A stretch of 64,000 nucleotides of DNA from assembly GCA_902524245.1 (NCBI GenBank), contig CABZCN010000001.1, forward strand, positions 1 to 64,000, written 5' to 3'. The translations under genes were made by a program, and so were the position numbers. The notes under the pieces are model-generated. The model saw only the letters and a list, made by a program, of their open reading frames with translations. It was not told where the DNA came from and made no database searches. The first letter of the stretch is position 1; every line of letters starts with the position of its first letter. Below are positions 6,581-60,383 of this stretch, piece after piece. This stretch comes from an uncultured Alphaproteobacteria bacterium. Lineage in GTDB: Bacteria; Pseudomonadota; Alphaproteobacteria; HIMB59.

Positions 6581-7771
6581 ATTAGACAAAATTTTATTCT
6601 TATACTCTTCAAATCTATCCTCATTTATAGATGATCTTATTTCTTTAAAAAACTTATTCATAAACCATATATTATATATTGATAGAATGGTCATACCGAG
6701 CATCTCATTAGCTTTAAACAAATGATGTATATAAGATTTTGAAAATTTATTTATTTCCTGTAATTCACATCCTTCATCAATACTAGAATGATCATCTTTA
6801 AATTTTGAGTTGTTTAAATTAATTCCTTTACTACTTAGTTTTGACATCATAATACCATGTCTAGCAATCCTTGTAGGTGATACACAATCAAATGTGTCAT
6901 ATCCAGAACTTACACCATGCAAAATATCATTTAGTCCTCCAATTCCTAGAATATGAATAGGTTTTGATTTATCTATATAATTTTCACAGATAGAAAAGAT
7001 TTCGTACATCTGATTTTTTGTGCTCCCCAAAGAGCCACCTATTGCAAGTCCATCAAAATTTTTTGAGCATGTTACTTCACAAGCAATCTTTCTTAAATCC
7101 TCATAAACACCACCTTGTATTATACCATATAGTGACTGTTTTCCTGAGGAACCAAAGGTTGAGTTATACTTTTTAAATTTTGACTCGAAAGAATTTATAC
7201 ATCTTTCTGCCCAGCGATGACTCATGTACATAGACTTTTCTGTATATTTTTTTGAGACATTAAAGGGCGTACATTCATCTAAGACAAAAATCAGATCAGC
7301 ACCAAAGTCACGTTGTAATTCAATTGATCTCTCAGGTGATAAGAATACTTTATCTCCATTTATATAATTTCTAAATGATGCACCATCCTCAGTTATTTTT
7401 ATTAGAGATTTTCTCTTTGCATTATTATTTTTTCCTTTAATTTCCTCTGAAACTGACCCATATCCTAGTGAAAATATTTGATATCCCCCACTATCAGTCA
7501 TCATAGGTCCATTCCAATCAGTAAAACTCTGTAAACCCCCTTCTTTTGATATGATCTCTGGACCCGGTTGAAGCATTAAATGATATGTGTTTGAAAGAAT
7601 AATTTGTGTTCTTGCTAATTTTAATTGAGAGGGGAGTACAGATTTGACAGTGGCCTTGGTACCACAAAAAATAAATGAAGGTGTATTGATTTTACCATGT
7701 GATGTATTAATTAATCCAAGTCGAGCATTTGATAATTTTGACTTTTTTTTTACTTGAAAAAAATTAGTCAA
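6569..7771 (-). CDS. tgt: tRNA-guanine transglycosylase (zinc site degenerate)
   Basis: A 400-aa protein of the Tgt family, which swaps G34 for a queuosine precursor in GUN-anticodon tRNAs. The catalytic parts are intact: [12 protein letters not shown] near residue 95 carries the general acid/base Asp, and [13 protein letters not shown] near 280 carries the nucleophilic Asp. GGxxG binding loops such as [13 protein letters not shown] are also present. The usual C-terminal zinc motif CxCxxC is reduced to a single Cys (Cys335 in DEGCELQEI). The later His ligand is Tyr in SIYNIWF, although the flanking SYIHHL and NEMLG segments align. The start overlaps the transporter gene upstream by 8 bases, so the two share a transcript. 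Confidence 0.92.
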
Positions 7772-55245: not shown

Positions 55246-56682
55246 ATGAAATTTTATAAATTTCCGTTTTTACTTTTATTTATTTTTTATTCTATGAGCG
55301 TATTTGCAGAAAAAAGCTATTTCAAAAATATCAGTCATTTATTGCCTGATCAAAGTCCCAGACTAAGTTACGGGGTGGCTGTAACTGATTTTGATAATGA
55401 TGATAATGATGAATTTATAGTAACCGGATTTAGATTTAGTAATTTAGCTTTAGGCTTTAATGGAGAAAGATTTGAAAATAAAATTACTGATAATATTTTT
55501 TCTGACCCAGAGAGATCTACAATTGGAGTTGCTGCATGCGATATTGATAAAGATGGTCTTGAGGAGATTTATTTTCTTAACACCGATACCTACAGTGGGA
55601 TGAAAAGGTACTCGGACAGGCTTTTAATAAATTCGCAGAATGCAATAGAGGACTTATTTGAAAAGAAAATTAATCAAAGTGAATTAAATTTAACAGCAGG
55701 AAGATCAGTAGTTTGTGTCGACAGAGAGGGTAATGGAAATTACGGTATTTATGTTGCTAATTATGGTGGTCCAACAAGATTTTATGAGTTTATTGATAAT
55801 AGAATTGTAGATCTAGCTGCAAGTCTGGGGCTTGATAAAGTTACAGGAGGCAGAGCTGTAGTTGCTGGTCATATCTTATCTGATCAAATAGATGTATTTG
55901 CAGCTAATGAAAGAGGACCTAATTTTCTTTATTTAAATCAAAATGGAAAGTATTCAGACGTCGCCAGTCAAATGAATGTTAAAGATATTTATCAAAATGG
56001 AAGAGGGACAGCATTATCTGATATTCTTTATCGAGGAAGACTTGATATATTAAACGGTAACTGGGAAGGTTTTAATAGAGCCTACGTTTTAGATAACGAC
56101 AAATTTAAAAACATTGCTAATTCTACTTTTGATGAGCCATCAAAAATTAGAACAGTAATCTCTGCGGATTTTGATAATGATGGTTATGATGAGGTGTTTC
56201 TTAATAACATAGGTGAGCCAAATAGACTTTATAAAATAATTGAAAATGGTGTTTTTGAAGAAATTAAACTAGAACAAGCTCTAGAGCCAAATGGTCTTGG
56301 AACGGGAGCTGCAGTTGCAGATATTGATAATGATGGAGTCCTAGAGCTTCTTTTATCTCATGGTGAGTCCGGTGCGCAACCTTTGACTCTATTTAAATAT
56401 CATAATGATGAGCAAAGATCTTTTTTAAGGGTTAGACCTTTAAATATCCATGGGGCACCAGCAAGAGGTACAACTGTAACTTTATACACAAATGAAAGAA
56501 CACATTCGAAAACAATCGATGCCGGATCAGGTTATCTATGTCAAATGGAGCCTGTTGCTCACTATGGAATTAGAGATAACGAAAATGAGTTTAAGATTAA
56601 AATTAAATGGACTAATGGGGATGAGGAACTATTAGAGGTTGAAAATTTAAATCAGACTATAATAGTGAAGCAGAAGATATAA
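55246..56682 (+). CDS. CRTAC1-like FG-GAP/VCBS and ASPIC/UnbV exported protein
   Basis: A 478-aa secreted protein. A signal peptide (residues about 1-21) precedes a seven-bladed propeller of FG-GAP/VCBS-type repeats with calcium-like loops. Those visible are DFDNDDNDEF near 47, DIDKDGLEE near 98, DFDNDGYDE near 300 and DIDNDGVLE near 347. The C-terminal ASPIC/UnbV-like domain includes HGAPARGTTVTLYTNERTHSKTI and a GSGYLCQMEPVAHYGI turn. Such proteins bind surfaces or glycans, but none has a firm activity. It overlaps no other gene and converges on the ATP-grasp gene within 3 bases. Confidence 0.9.
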   Translation: MKFYKFPFLLLFIFYSMSVFAEKSYFKNISHLLPDQSPRLSYGVAVTDFDNDDNDEFIVTGFRFSNLALGFNGERFENKITDNIFSDPERSTIGVAACDIDKDGLEEIYFLNTDTYSGMKRYSDRLLINSQNAIEDLFEKKINQSELNLTAGRSVVCVDREGNGNYGIYVANYGGPTRFYEFIDNRIVDLAASLGLDKVTGGRAVVAGHILSDQIDVFAANERGPNFLYLNQNGKYSDVASQMNVKDIYQNGRGTALSDILYRGRLDILNGNWEGFNRAYVLDNDKFKNIANSTFDEPSKIRTVISADFDNDGYDEVFLNNIGEPNRLYKIIENGVFEEIKLEQALEPNGLGTGAAVADIDNDGVLELLLSHGESGAQPLTLFKYHNDEQRSFLRVRPLNIHGAPARGTTVTLYTNERTHSKTIDAGSGYLCQMEPVAHYGIRDNENEFKIKIKWTNGDEELLEVENLNQTIIVKQKI

Positions 56683-56684
56683 AT

Positions 56685-58130
56685 TTAATCTTCTACGATC
56701 ATAGTATCTTTTGAGCCTCCACCCTGTGAACTATTTACTATCGTGCTTCCCTTTTTTAGAGCAACTCTAGTCAAACCACCCATAGTTACATACGTCTCCC
56801 TTCCTGAGAGAATAAATGGTCGTAAATCTTGATGTCGAGGCTCAATCAAATTCCCCTGCAAAGTTGGGGTAGTTGATAATATTTCTAAAGGTTGAGCTAT
56901 AAAGTTTCTTGGGTTATGTAAAATTTTTCTAATGTATGCCTCTCTCTCGGATTTAGAGGATTTAGGTCCTACTATAATTCCATAACCACCAGATCCATCA
57001 GCTGGTTTTACTATCATTTTTGAAATATTTGATATTACGTGATCTCTCTCGGATTTATTGTGACATAAATATGTTTCTACTTGATCCAATTTAGGTTCTT
57101 CATCTAAATAATATTTAATAATTTTGGGAACGTATGAGTATATAACCTTATCATCTGCTACCCCACTTCCAGGTGCATTTAGAAGTCCAACATTACCTTT
57201 TCTGTAAGATTTGTATAAACCTGCCACACCTAACAAAGATCCTTTAAAAAAAGTCTTGGGATCTAAAAAAGTATCATCAATCCTTCTGTATATACAATCA
57301 ACTCTTAACCCCCCTTTAACTGTCTTTACGTAAACTTTGTCATTTTCGACATAAAGATCTTTTCCCTCAACAAGAGCAATTCCCATTTGCTGTGCTAAAA
57401 ATGAATGTTCAAAGTAGGCAGAGTTATAAACTCCTGGCGTCAACACAACCATTGTTGGGTTATTTTTTTTATAAGGTATTGCATCTAACATACAATGATA
57501 GAGTCTATTACAATAGTGATTGATCGGCGAAACTCTATAGCGCGTAAATAATTCAGGAAACACCTCCCCCATTACCATTCTATTTTCAAGCATATATGAA
57601 ACACCTGAAGGGACACGAAGGTTATCCTCTAATACTAAAAATTTTCCATCAATATTTCTAATTAAATCTATTCCTGAAATATGAGACCAAATTTTTTTTT
57701 TTGGATGAAAACCCTCACATTGTTTTAAATAATTTTGAGATTTAAATACTAATTCTTTTGGAACAATGTTGTCTTTAAATATTTTTTTTTGGTTATAGAC
57801 ATCATTTATAAAAAGATTTAATGCTTTACACCTTTGTATTAATCCTTTTCTCACCTTAAGCCATTGGGATTTAAGAATAATCCTTGGAATGATATCTAAT
57901 GGCCATTTTTTTTCTTCTGCAGCTTTTTTATCTGCTGAGTAAACTTTAAAATTAATACCACGAGAACTTATTGTGCTTTGACAATTTTGTTCAATTCTCT
58001 CTAAATCTTTGATTGAGTAACTATTTAATATTTTTGAAATTACTTTAGCTTCTTTTCTAAGACTTTTTTCAGGGGTTAAATACTCATCATAGCTATTTTT
58101 TGAATTGTAATTTTTCCAATTTATGCTCAC
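56685..58130 (-). CDS. Circularly permuted ATP-grasp type II protein (Anbu-cluster type)
   Basis: A 481-aa protein with the family pattern of circularly permuted ATP-grasp ligases. LVLEDNLRVPSGVSYMLENRMVMGEVFPELF is the hallmark, followed by CIYRRIDDTFLDPKTF, VGLLNAPGSGVADDKVIYSYVPKII, and IVKPADGSGGYGIIVGPKSS. LSTTPTLQGNLIEPRHQDLRPFIL completes it. The expected chemistry is amide-bond formation on an unknown peptide-like substrate. It is divergent from the Anbu protease at 58236, its usual cluster partner. The Arg-rich and Glu residues of the ATP site appear intact. Confidence 0.9.
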   Translation of the reverse strand: MSINWKNYNSKNSYDEYLTPEKSLRKEAKVISKILNSYSIKDLERIEQNCQSTISSRGINFKVYSADKKAAEEKKWPLDIIPRIILKSQWLKVRKGLIQRCKALNLFINDVYNQKKIFKDNIVPKELVFKSQNYLKQCEGFHPKKKIWSHISGIDLIRNIDGKFLVLEDNLRVPSGVSYMLENRMVMGEVFPELFTRYRVSPINHYCNRLYHCMLDAIPYKKNNPTMVVLTPGVYNSAYFEHSFLAQQMGIALVEGKDLYVENDKVYVKTVKGGLRVDCIYRRIDDTFLDPKTFFKGSLLGVAGLYKSYRKGNVGLLNAPGSGVADDKVIYSYVPKIIKYYLDEEPKLDQVETYLCHNKSERDHVISNISKMIVKPADGSGGYGIIVGPKSSKSEREAYIRKILHNPRNFIAQPLEILSTTPTLQGNLIEPRHQDLRPFILSGRETYVTMGGLTRVALKKGSTIVNSSQGGGSKDTMIVED

Positions 58131-58235
58131 TGTTTAAAAATACTATAAATGAGTATTAGTAGTTATGCATAGTTTAGATTGAAGGTATGTAAATAATCGT
58201 TTGTATTTTTAAAAAATTAGCTATTTAATTAAAAT
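58131..58235. promoter_or_regulatory. Divergent promoter region, ATP-grasp / Anbu
   Basis: A 105-base A/T-rich spacer that must carry both promoters. It has a short inverted element (ATACTATAAATGAGTATTAGTAG, first half near 58140-58162) and no GC-rich hairpin. Co-regulation of the ATP-grasp and protease genes from one spacer is plausible. Confidence 0.4.
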
Positions 58236-58961
58236 GTGACTTATTGTGTAGGAATAAAAGTAAATGAGGGGATGGTATTTGCATCTGACAGAAGGACAAA
58301 TGCAGGTCTAGATAACTTTAACTCTTATTCTAAAATGTATGTCCACAAGGGCATTGATAGAAATATAATAATTTTAACTTCTGGAAATTTGGCTACTTCT
58401 CAAGCAGTCTTCAACTCGATTACTAAAGATTTAGAAGACCATAAAAATGGGAATAACTTAAATAATTTATTTAATTTAAATGAAATCGCAAAATACATTG
58501 GGAGATTAAATGTTAAACACTCCTCACCAGATGGTATTAATCAAGAAACTATTGAATTAGGTTCAACTTTTATAGTTGGTGGACATATAAAAGATCAAGA
58601 GTCAGAATTGTATTTGGTTTACCCACAGGGTAACTTTATTAAATCAAGTGAATTCAAACCTTACCTTGTCATTGGAGAAATAAAGTATGGTAAGCCAATA
58701 TTAGACAGAGTTGTCAAGTCAGACACTTATCTTGGAGATGCAGCAAGATGTGCGTTAATAAGTATGGACAGTACAATGAAAGCAGATTTATCTGTTGGTC
58801 CTCCAATCGACTTAGTTGTATATAAAAATAATTTATCAGAAATAGTTTACCAACAATCTCTTGAAATTAATGATGACGATTATCAATACATATCTAAACA
58901 ATGGGAAAAAGGAATATTTGAAATTTTTAAATCTTTTGATCGTTTTAAATGGGAAGAATAA
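58236..58961 (+). CDS. anbu: Anbu, proteasome-like Ntn hydrolase
   Basis: A 241-aa Ntn-type protease of the ancestral beta-subunit (Anbu) family. It starts with a GTG at 58236, followed by ACT so that Thr2 becomes the N-terminal nucleophile after Met removal. The sequence TYCVGIKVNEGMVFASDRRTNAG matches beta subunits, including the Asp-Arg of the catalytic region. Further family signatures are LGSTFIVGGHIKDQESELYLVYPQGN and YGKPILDR. It forms helical or open-ring assemblies in known members. It is adjacent, on the divergent side, to the CP ATP-grasp gene, and followed after 3 bases by a small membrane protein. Confidence 0.92.
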   Translation: MTYCVGIKVNEGMVFASDRRTNAGLDNFNSYSKMYVHKGIDRNIIILTSGNLATSQAVFNSITKDLEDHKNGNNLNNLFNLNEIAKYIGRLNVKHSSPDGINQETIELGSTFIVGGHIKDQESELYLVYPQGNFIKSSEFKPYLVIGEIKYGKPILDRVVKSDTYLGDAARCALISMDSTMKADLSVGPPIDLVVYKNNLSEIVYQQSLEINDDDYQYISKQWEKGIFEIFKSFDRFKWEE

Positions 58962-58964
58962 TAA

Positions 58965-59123
58965 ATGGAGCCCTCTTCTTTTGTAACAAACTTATCGAGT
59001 GTTGTAGTAATTACTCTAGCTTTAATTTCTTTTTATCTAATGGCCAGAAAAAAAGGAAAATACGTAGACATAATATTCGGTTTTATTTTAGGAATAATTG
59101 TTCTTGTTAAAATTATTTATTGA
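58965..59123 (+). CDS. Small two-helix membrane protein downstream of Anbu (52 aa)
   Basis: An ATG at 58965, three bases after the Anbu stop, opens a 52-codon frame ending TGA at 59121-59123. The product has two hydrophobic helices (about residues 11-25 and 37-51) separated by ARKKGKYVD, a hairpin topology with both ends on one side. The positive loop suggests that it faces the cytoplasm. Close spacing implies co-translation with the protease. No family is recognised; it could be a membrane partner or an unrelated microprotein. Confidence 0.55.
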   Translation: MEPSSFVTNLSSVVVITLALISFYLMARKKGKYVDIIFGFILGIIVLVKIIY

Positions 59124-59197
59124 CAACAGCCGTCGCCACATGTGCAACAGCATGAGCAAGAACAACCACAATCAGGTTTTGGTTTATTATTATCCAT
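59117..59197 (-). CDS. Cysteine-rich microprotein, metallothionein-like (26 aa)
   Basis: An ATG at 59197 opens a 26-residue frame ending TAA at 59117-59119. Nine of 26 residues are cysteine, at positions 10, 12, 14, 16, 17, 18, 20, 24 and 25, separated only by Gly, Ser, Thr and Asp. The N-terminus is MDNNKPKPD. Such density of CxC and CC motifs is that of metal-binding metallothionein-like peptides or of modified peptide precursors. It is in a locally GC-rich patch of a very AT-rich genome. Its 3' end overlaps the small membrane gene by 7 bases. Confidence 0.6.
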   Translation of the reverse strand: MDNNKPKPDCGCSCSCCCTCGDGCCQ

Positions 59198-60308: not shown

Positions 60309-60383
60309 GCCGCCGTAGCTCAGTGGTAGAGCACACCCTTGGTAAGGGTGGGGTCGGAAGTTCAATTCTTCTCGGCGGCACCA
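60309..60383 (+). tRNA. tRNA-Thr (GGT)
   Basis: A complete cloverleaf. Acceptor GCCGCCG pairs with CGGCGGC, with discriminator A and encoded CCA. The D-arm is GCTCAGTGGTAGAGC, and the anticodon stem CACCC / GGGTG carries GGT. The T-arm region is GGAAGTTCAATTCTTC. Confidence 0.96.

Follow-up and report, generated by a model that had tools for sequence, protein, structure and literature searches.

A divergent ATP-grasp and Anbu gene pair without alpha-E in HIMB59-type and SAR11 genomes

Introduction

How many genes does an Anbu system need? What Anbu, a proteasome-like Ntn-hydrolase, does has long been debated in work on proteasome evolution; published experiments revealed no substrate for it, and no complex that it forms with the other operon proteins (PMC6376114). 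The Anbu operon of Proteobacteria is composed of four genes, which encode an ATP-grasp protein, an alpha-E protein, a transglutaminase-like protein and Anbu (PMC6376114, PMC5666114). The stretch of DNA analyzed here, termed the window, is 64,000 nucleotides in length (positions 1 to 64,000 of contig CABZCN010000001.1) and comes from an uncultured alphaproteobacterium of the HIMB59 lineage. It contains one ATP-grasp gene and one Anbu gene in divergent orientation, and one small gene for a 52-residue protein behind Anbu. One preliminary description, made from the letters alone, regarded these genes as a reduced Anbu system. Our analysis indicates that the reduced system is real, and that it is wider and better defined than was proposed.

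Results

The ATP-grasp and Anbu genes of the window

The ATP-grasp gene (56685..58130, minus strand) has a GTG start and encodes a circularly permuted (type 2) ATP-grasp protein of 481 residues, a predicted amide or peptide ligase. The protein matched Pfam CP_ATPgrasp_2 (PF14403) with 515.2 bits, compared to the gathering cut-off of 32, and CP_ATPgrasp_1 (PF04174) with 438 bits. Residues 34-481 could be aligned with PDB entry 3n6x (E 9e-141), which belongs to the same ATP-grasp family; its name, 'putative glutathionylspermidine synthase', is the depositors' label of an entry that provides the structure only.

The Anbu gene (58236..58961, plus strand) also has a GTG start; it encodes 241 residues with a Met-Thr N-terminus and matched Pfam Proteasome (PF00227) with 49 bits. 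The five best PDB relatives of the protein are 5loy (E 5e-59), 5nyj, 5nyf, 5nyw and 5lox, reaching down to E 7e-47, whereas the next PDB match, 3a3j, has an E-value of only 2e-4. In the PDB, 5loy, 5nyj and 5nyf are labelled as Anbu (5loy as a designed Anbu protein), and 5nyw and 5lox just as 'Peptidase'; 5LOX was identified as Anbu in PMC8665760. The alignment with the solved Anbu particles is nearly full-length, the similarity being only moderate. The two genes are separated by an intergenic region of 105 base pairs (bp; 58131..58235), as read from the sequence. The divergent arrangement given in the preliminary description was thus confirmed by the coordinates and by the Pfam and PDB matches.

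Alpha-E and transglutaminase in the genome, the genus and the class

The window genome is 1.37 megabases in size and 94.6% complete. Absence of the partner genes was judged by homology searches, using PF04168 for alpha-E and PF01841 for the transglutaminase core, and neither family had any match in the whole genome. The two partners had been described as missing from the window, with a genome-wide search for alpha-E (DUF403) and transglutaminase genes suggested as a check; the absence holds and extends to the rest of the genome, where the missing partners were not found.

The genus set consists of 52 genomes, the window genome included. Alpha-E was found in none of them and the transglutaminase core in one (G031), as a 639-residue frame on a contig other than its Anbu contig. 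Anbu is present in 37 of the 52 genomes (36 of the 51 relatives of the window genome) and ATP-grasp in 36; both genes occur together in 35 genomes, neither occurs in 14, and one occurs alone in three. Two of the discordant genomes (G041 and G049) have the gene at contig ends; in the third, G007, Anbu is cut and no ATP-grasp was found. The Anbu of G007 (L051/L200) begins only at residue 13, and its left flank and ATP-grasp gene are replaced by unrelated genes; this locus is either a broken module or an assembly join.

The class sample comprised 385 genomes, of which 111, three of them from the window's genus, carry Anbu; 80 of the 108 other carriers were used as the contrast set. Alpha-E is present in 78 of these 80 genomes, and ATP-grasp likewise in 78. 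Caulobacter vibrioides has alpha-E. Some transglutaminase core was found in all 80, but the domain is common and the count says little. Alpha-E is located within 6 kilobases (kb) of Anbu in 56 of the 80, with both genes on one strand in 54 of these 56. A further 22 genomes have it at another place or on a different contig, and it was not found in two, namely G352 (63% complete) and G245, whose ATP-grasp match reaches the contig end. ATP-grasp had no match in G352 and G471. The Anbu match of G471, the only nearly complete carrier among the 80 without ATP-grasp, is weak, and a partial alpha-E match lies 420 kb away from it. Since 78 of the 80 carriers have alpha-E, lack of it in an Anbu carrier is the exception in the class sample.

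One genome, G393, surfaced in the class sample by its much closer Anbu. It has alpha-E beside ATP-grasp, plus Anbu, and its sole transglutaminase core (a 647-residue frame) is ∼430 kb away. We sampled 297 genomes of the order of G393, for which we infer the name SAR11/Pelagibacterales, because NCBI places L066 and L067, two loci with this type of pair, in Candidatus Pelagibacterales. NCBI also files two records of the window's genus (L038 and L045) there, which weakens the naming. Anbu was found in 125 of the 297 genomes. Among the 80 carriers examined for alpha-E, 71 of which have a completeness of 90% or more and a contamination of 5% or less, only G393 possesses it. With alpha-E in 0/52 genus genomes and 1/80 SAR11 carriers, we ruled out that the partners were missed through incomplete assembly. 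Chance or contamination was also ruled out, as Anbu recurs in the genus relatives and in a second order.

The sister family f2, which is of the same order as the window, contains the reciprocal half of the system. None of its 48 genomes has Anbu; ATP-grasp, of the same family as that of the window, alpha-E and the transglutaminase core occur together in the same 29, and the transglutaminase core adjoins alpha-E in all of these carriers. ATP-grasp, alpha-E and Anbu were all not found in the other 19, one of which (G086) has a 488-residue frame with a transglutaminase core. Because Anbu in one family and alpha-E plus transglutaminase in the other are split reciprocally within one order, ATP-grasp is suggested to be a shared core with two separable partners.

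Arrangement and surroundings of the pair

The SAR11 counts of the pair start from Anbu carriers and Anbu loci. ATP-grasp stands divergently before Anbu in 90 of the 91 SAR11 loci, and the one exception (L271) is near a contig end. The intergenic gap of the 90 loci ranges from 75 to 118 bp, with a median of 109 bp. Mechanical calling of open reading frames gave 28 flanking neighbour pairs in 89 loci; if frames of at least 70 residues are demanded on both sides, there are 24 distinct neighbour pairs in 84 loci, the five commonest of which account for 56. The flanking genes usually abut the pair, the left one lying within 60 bp and the right one within 70 bp in 80 of the 89 loci. No constant third gene was found at the SAR11 cassette sites examined.

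In the HIMB59-type genomes, the pair is located in a variable stretch that runs from clpB to a thioesterase gene. Seven flanking stretches were obtained from pair-less genomes of the genus. L183-L186 reach the contig end before the thioesterase gene; L181, L182 and L187 span the whole interval and contain other genes, with no ATP-grasp, Anbu or 52-residue protein gene among them.

One promoter-like element, located at 58162..58199 in the window, is conserved between the two genes in both lineages. Its consensus, CAAATGCAT-N7-ATANCWGNTATG, reached 27.6 bits over 28 de-duplicated intergenic regions (25 from SAR11 and 3 HIMB59-type), compared to at most 10.5 bits in 100 letter-shuffled sets with the same fitting. 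The HIMB59-type copies match the consensus only partly, and by eye the intergenic region of G393 is without the element. We take the element to resemble an extended -10 promoter. Owing to the near-constant divergent order, the 24 neighbour pairs, the conserved promoter-like element and the single alpha-E among 80 carriers, the pair appears to be a two-gene unit that is sufficient by itself and moves from place to place. In SAR11, it may instead be the flanks that were rearranged, the pair itself not having moved.

Selection and catalytic residues

In four HIMB59-type comparisons, the ratio of nonsynonymous to synonymous substitution rates (dN/dS) lies between 0.02 and 0.05 in Anbu and between 0.01 and 0.03 in ATP-grasp; dS is often near or above 2 in these comparisons, which makes the ratios imprecise there. 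The candidate catalytic residues of Anbu are Thr1, Asp17 and Lys32/33 in the numbering of PMC6376114. When Met is counted as 1, Thr2, Asp18 and Lys33 are each present in all 91 SAR11 rows and all 26 class rows of our alignment; among the 35 HIMB59-type rows, Thr is present in 33 (the other two have a gap) and Asp and Lys in all. Taken together with the lack of alpha-E throughout the genus and the single transglutaminase core, this purifying selection and the kept catalytic residues support the proposed reduced system well.

In the ATP-grasp alignment, 131 columns hold one and the same residue, at a conservation of 90% or more, in the full-operon group as well as in the two-gene group, and 10 columns are switched between the groups. 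In one further column, Trp at 477 is kept at 90% or more in the full group and in G393, and lost in the two-gene group. We do not claim this residue as an alpha-E contact, as there are too many changes on the long branch.

History of the pair

In the ATP-grasp tree, SAR11, HIMB59 and G393 cluster together (support 100), G393 being outside the other rows (99), and f2 falls with the ordinary class genomes. This tree was obtained with a quick method, which gave warnings about long branches and about the letter composition of G393 and some SAR11 rows. In the Anbu tree, SAR11, HIMB59 and G393 cluster as well (100/100). Stepwise loss fits these trees, from four genes to three (alpha-E, ATP-grasp and Anbu, as in G393) and then to two.

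The ATP-grasp proteins of HIMB59 are 77-78% identical to those of three SAR11 loci and 68-73% identical to the others. Anbu rejects a clade of HIMB59 with two of those SAR11 rows (approximately unbiased test, p-AU 0.017; the group was picked after seeing the ATP-grasp tree). An exchange of ATP-grasp between SAR11 and HIMB59 is hinted at by the identities and the quick tree, but we do not claim it, because a single SAR11 clade remains acceptable for ATP-grasp (p-AU 0.42). HIMB59 may have received the pair from SAR11 or may share it by common descent; transfer would be favoured by the view, argued in PMC3815206, that HIMB59 lies outside SAR11.

The 52-residue protein and other neighbours

The gene of the 52-residue two-helix membrane protein (58965..59123, plus strand) begins 3 bp past the Anbu stop, as described before, and the protein has two hydrophobic stretches (residues ∼7-27 and 34-51). 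The gene was found without internal stops in 36 of 37 sequences (the window and 36 loci); the one miss, L052, ends inside Anbu. The pooled ratio of nonsynonymous to synonymous polymorphism (pN/pS) is 0.23, compared to 0.81 and 6.2 in the other two frames. Because of this recurrence, the lack of internal stops and the low pN/pS, the frame is, by its sequence, a real gene under purifying selection. It follows Anbu directly except in L056, L058 and L059, where one TenA/THI-4 family gene is inserted between them (the family was tested for the L058 copy, 6730-7392, with 128 bits; all three are alike). The gene had no match in SAR11 cassettes, neither in 30 loci with E-values allowed up to 10 nor in 91 loci at 1e-5, and it is not in the three module-less genus loci.

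The preliminary description had suggested that the system may act at the membrane via the small protein, and that its conservation in relatives be checked. It was right that the gene is real and follows Anbu, as far as the genus is concerned; in SAR11 cassettes the gene was not found. As the gene was found only in the window's genus, the general membrane role is not supported, and the protein is better regarded as a genus-level add-on. We rejected it as an obligatory partner of the pair, given its absence from SAR11 cassettes and the intervening TenA gene. ATP-grasp, Anbu and the 52-residue protein gene all appear to behave as functional genes, only the first two being kept across both lineages.

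Several observations concern the surroundings. One 26-residue Cys-rich frame with nine Cys (59117-59197, minus strand) overlaps the end of the 52-residue protein gene on the opposite strand. Its residue pattern is present in 34 of 36 genus loci, and neither in the three module-less genus loci nor in SAR11 loci; its codon differences are 130 synonymous versus 21 other, the pattern itself limiting the latter. It is possibly a metal-binding peptide or a peptide substrate. In SAR11, a 73-residue hydrophobic protein family follows Anbu in 15 of 89 loci with several left neighbours (for example L196); it did not cluster with the 52-residue protein in BLAST.

On the other side, an FG-GAP/ASPIC-UnbV repeat protein (79 and 41 bits) is encoded at 55246-56682 on the plus strand and ends 2 bp from the ATP-grasp gene; L064 has a relative of it on the opposite side of the pair. 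In one sub-group of the genus, a fasciclin-domain gene (97 bits; L058: 3970-4437) adjoins ATP-grasp, and it is absent there in the window. A tRNA-Thr (ggt) gene at 60309-60383 (plus strand), downstream of the pair within the variable stretch, may favour the variability of the spot. Outside these genomes, two records labelled Acinetobacter phage MD-2021a, CAKLQH020000004.1 and CAKLQF020000002.1 (232 and 306 kb), carry an Anbu-like 'Proteasome subunit' with 38% identity; these records are possibly bacterial DNA under a phage label.

Discussion

The pair resembles the four-gene operon in its components. ATP-grasp is ∼44-51% identical to its near full-length best matches in class relatives, Anbu is ∼34-40% identical (L083-L108) with the same candidate catalytic residues, and Anbu is linked to an ATP-grasp gene, by 105 bp in the window and in 90 of 91 SAR11 loci. 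Different from the four-gene operon, the pair is a two-gene unit at many sites, without alpha-E and without the transglutaminase of the module. Compared to the co-directional operon, it is divergent, both in the window and in SAR11.

On balance, we lean towards the view that the pair is a self-sufficient ligase/hydrolase pair, probably set in nitrogen economy, with alpha-E and transglutaminase unneeded for the core step. By analogy with its superfamily, ATP-grasp, assigned by homology, would use ATP to activate a carboxylate, which would be joined to an amine. Anbu, also assigned by homology and with an intact candidate Thr-Asp-Lys set, would lose its first Met and thereby expose Thr1; it may then cleave the amide or peptide bond made by ATP-grasp. 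Alpha-E and transglutaminase would be dispensable for this step, SAR11 and HIMB59-type bacteria having lost them or never had them, and the pair would stay together at many places with its own divergent promoter region. The 52-residue protein would be an addition at the genus level. For Yersinia, the ATP-grasp enzyme of the operon is reported to release phosphate from ATP (PMC6376114), and the idea of the preliminary description, that the ligase would make a tag and Anbu would remove it, repeats hypotheses already published in that paper.

Nitrogen economy is the likely setting because relatives of the operon are under nitrogen/NtrC/sigma54 control in other bacteria (PMC5666114, PMC6376114, PMC5491218, PMC12316311). 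Anbu is upregulated in nitrogen-limited Pseudomonas putida, as cited in PMC5666114. In Burkholderia, a DUF404/407-DUF403-transglutaminase cluster is among the NtrC/sigma54 targets, Anbu not being named there (PMC5491218). Sigma54 control is also predicted for COG3484 (PMC12316311). Domains of alpha-E, ATP-grasp and transglutaminase were associated with urea-metabolism domains in one of two analyses of marine metagenomes (PMC3597751). The Burkholderia and metagenome examples are forms with alpha-E.

Several points weigh against this reading. For the Anbu of Y. bercovieri, neither peptidase activity nor a specific interaction with the other operon proteins was observed (PMC6376114), and expression of the operon was unchanged under the various conditions tested in PMC5666114. 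The SAR11 survey covers the pair from the Anbu side only. As for the history, the place of G393 within the group of the Anbu tree is weak (84/36); the ATP-grasp tree nests HIMB59 in SAR11, whereas the Anbu tree places it outside, and a single SAR11 clade stays compatible with ATP-grasp. An unrelated protein elsewhere in the genome could also stand in for alpha-E. More broadly, the activities of both alpha-E and transglutaminase may still be needed and be supplied by unrelated proteins, with which our homology-only searches remain compatible; long transglutaminase-core proteins are indeed encoded apart from the pair in G031 and G393. We regard such replacement as unlikely, however, as a transglutaminase core is present in just one genus genome and the cassette sites examined have no constant third gene. 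Alternatively, Anbu would be a peptidase of broad use in nitrogen or protein turnover, with ATP-grasp using the peptides it releases or acting separately and the linkage reflecting shared regulation. Although the expression of Anbu in nitrogen-limited P. putida (cited in PMC5666114), the predicted sigma54 control of COG3484 (PMC12316311) and the shared divergent promoter-like element agree with it, we give this explanation little credence: no peptidase activity could be detected with the Anbu proteins tested in PMC6376114, and co-regulation alone poorly explains a pair that is a unit at many loci.

The patchy, nearly all-or-none presence in the genus, the many places in SAR11 and the variable clpB-thioesterase region would also suit a mobile or competitive element of a defence- or addiction-like kind rather than a housekeeping cassette. 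This seems quite improbable to us, since the cassette is frequent (125/297) and strongly conserved, and PADLOC and PHROGs gave no match for the three proteins. Viral contigs gave 34 pattern matches, none of which was confirmed as a relative, and no transposase or integrase was recognised among the neighbours by eye, no family search having been run on these. A decaying remnant of the four-gene operon is very improbable. Two partners are gone, and the truncated Anbu of G007 (L051) has no adjoining ATP-grasp, but the idea is largely refuted by the selection data (dN/dS 0.01-0.05 for both genes), and the catalytic residues are kept in all 91 SAR11 loci, at many sites.

Beyond the ligase/hydrolase pair that we favour, we tentatively propose that a compact two-gene amide cycle, which moves between sites and has one promoter region common to both genes, forms the minimal Anbu system, spread through two abundant, streamlined ocean groups without alpha-E, transglutaminase or a constant third gene, with Anbu acting on, or transferring, the product of ATP-grasp. 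Among the matches listed in our literature searches, in which subscription papers are mostly outside coverage, none joined Anbu or COG3484 with SAR11 or Pelagibacter, and PMC12316311 was the only one on COG3484; a dedicated search for literature on the alpha-E domain with ATP-grasp and transglutaminase found none. If the proposal is true, Anbu acts on the product of its ATP-grasp partner and is not a general protease. In this naturally occurring two-gene form, two of the four candidate components drop out, leaving a small testable set. Since SAR11 has been described as the most abundant marine microbial group (PMC10308909), the pair may be of importance for how cells use nitrogen in the ocean.

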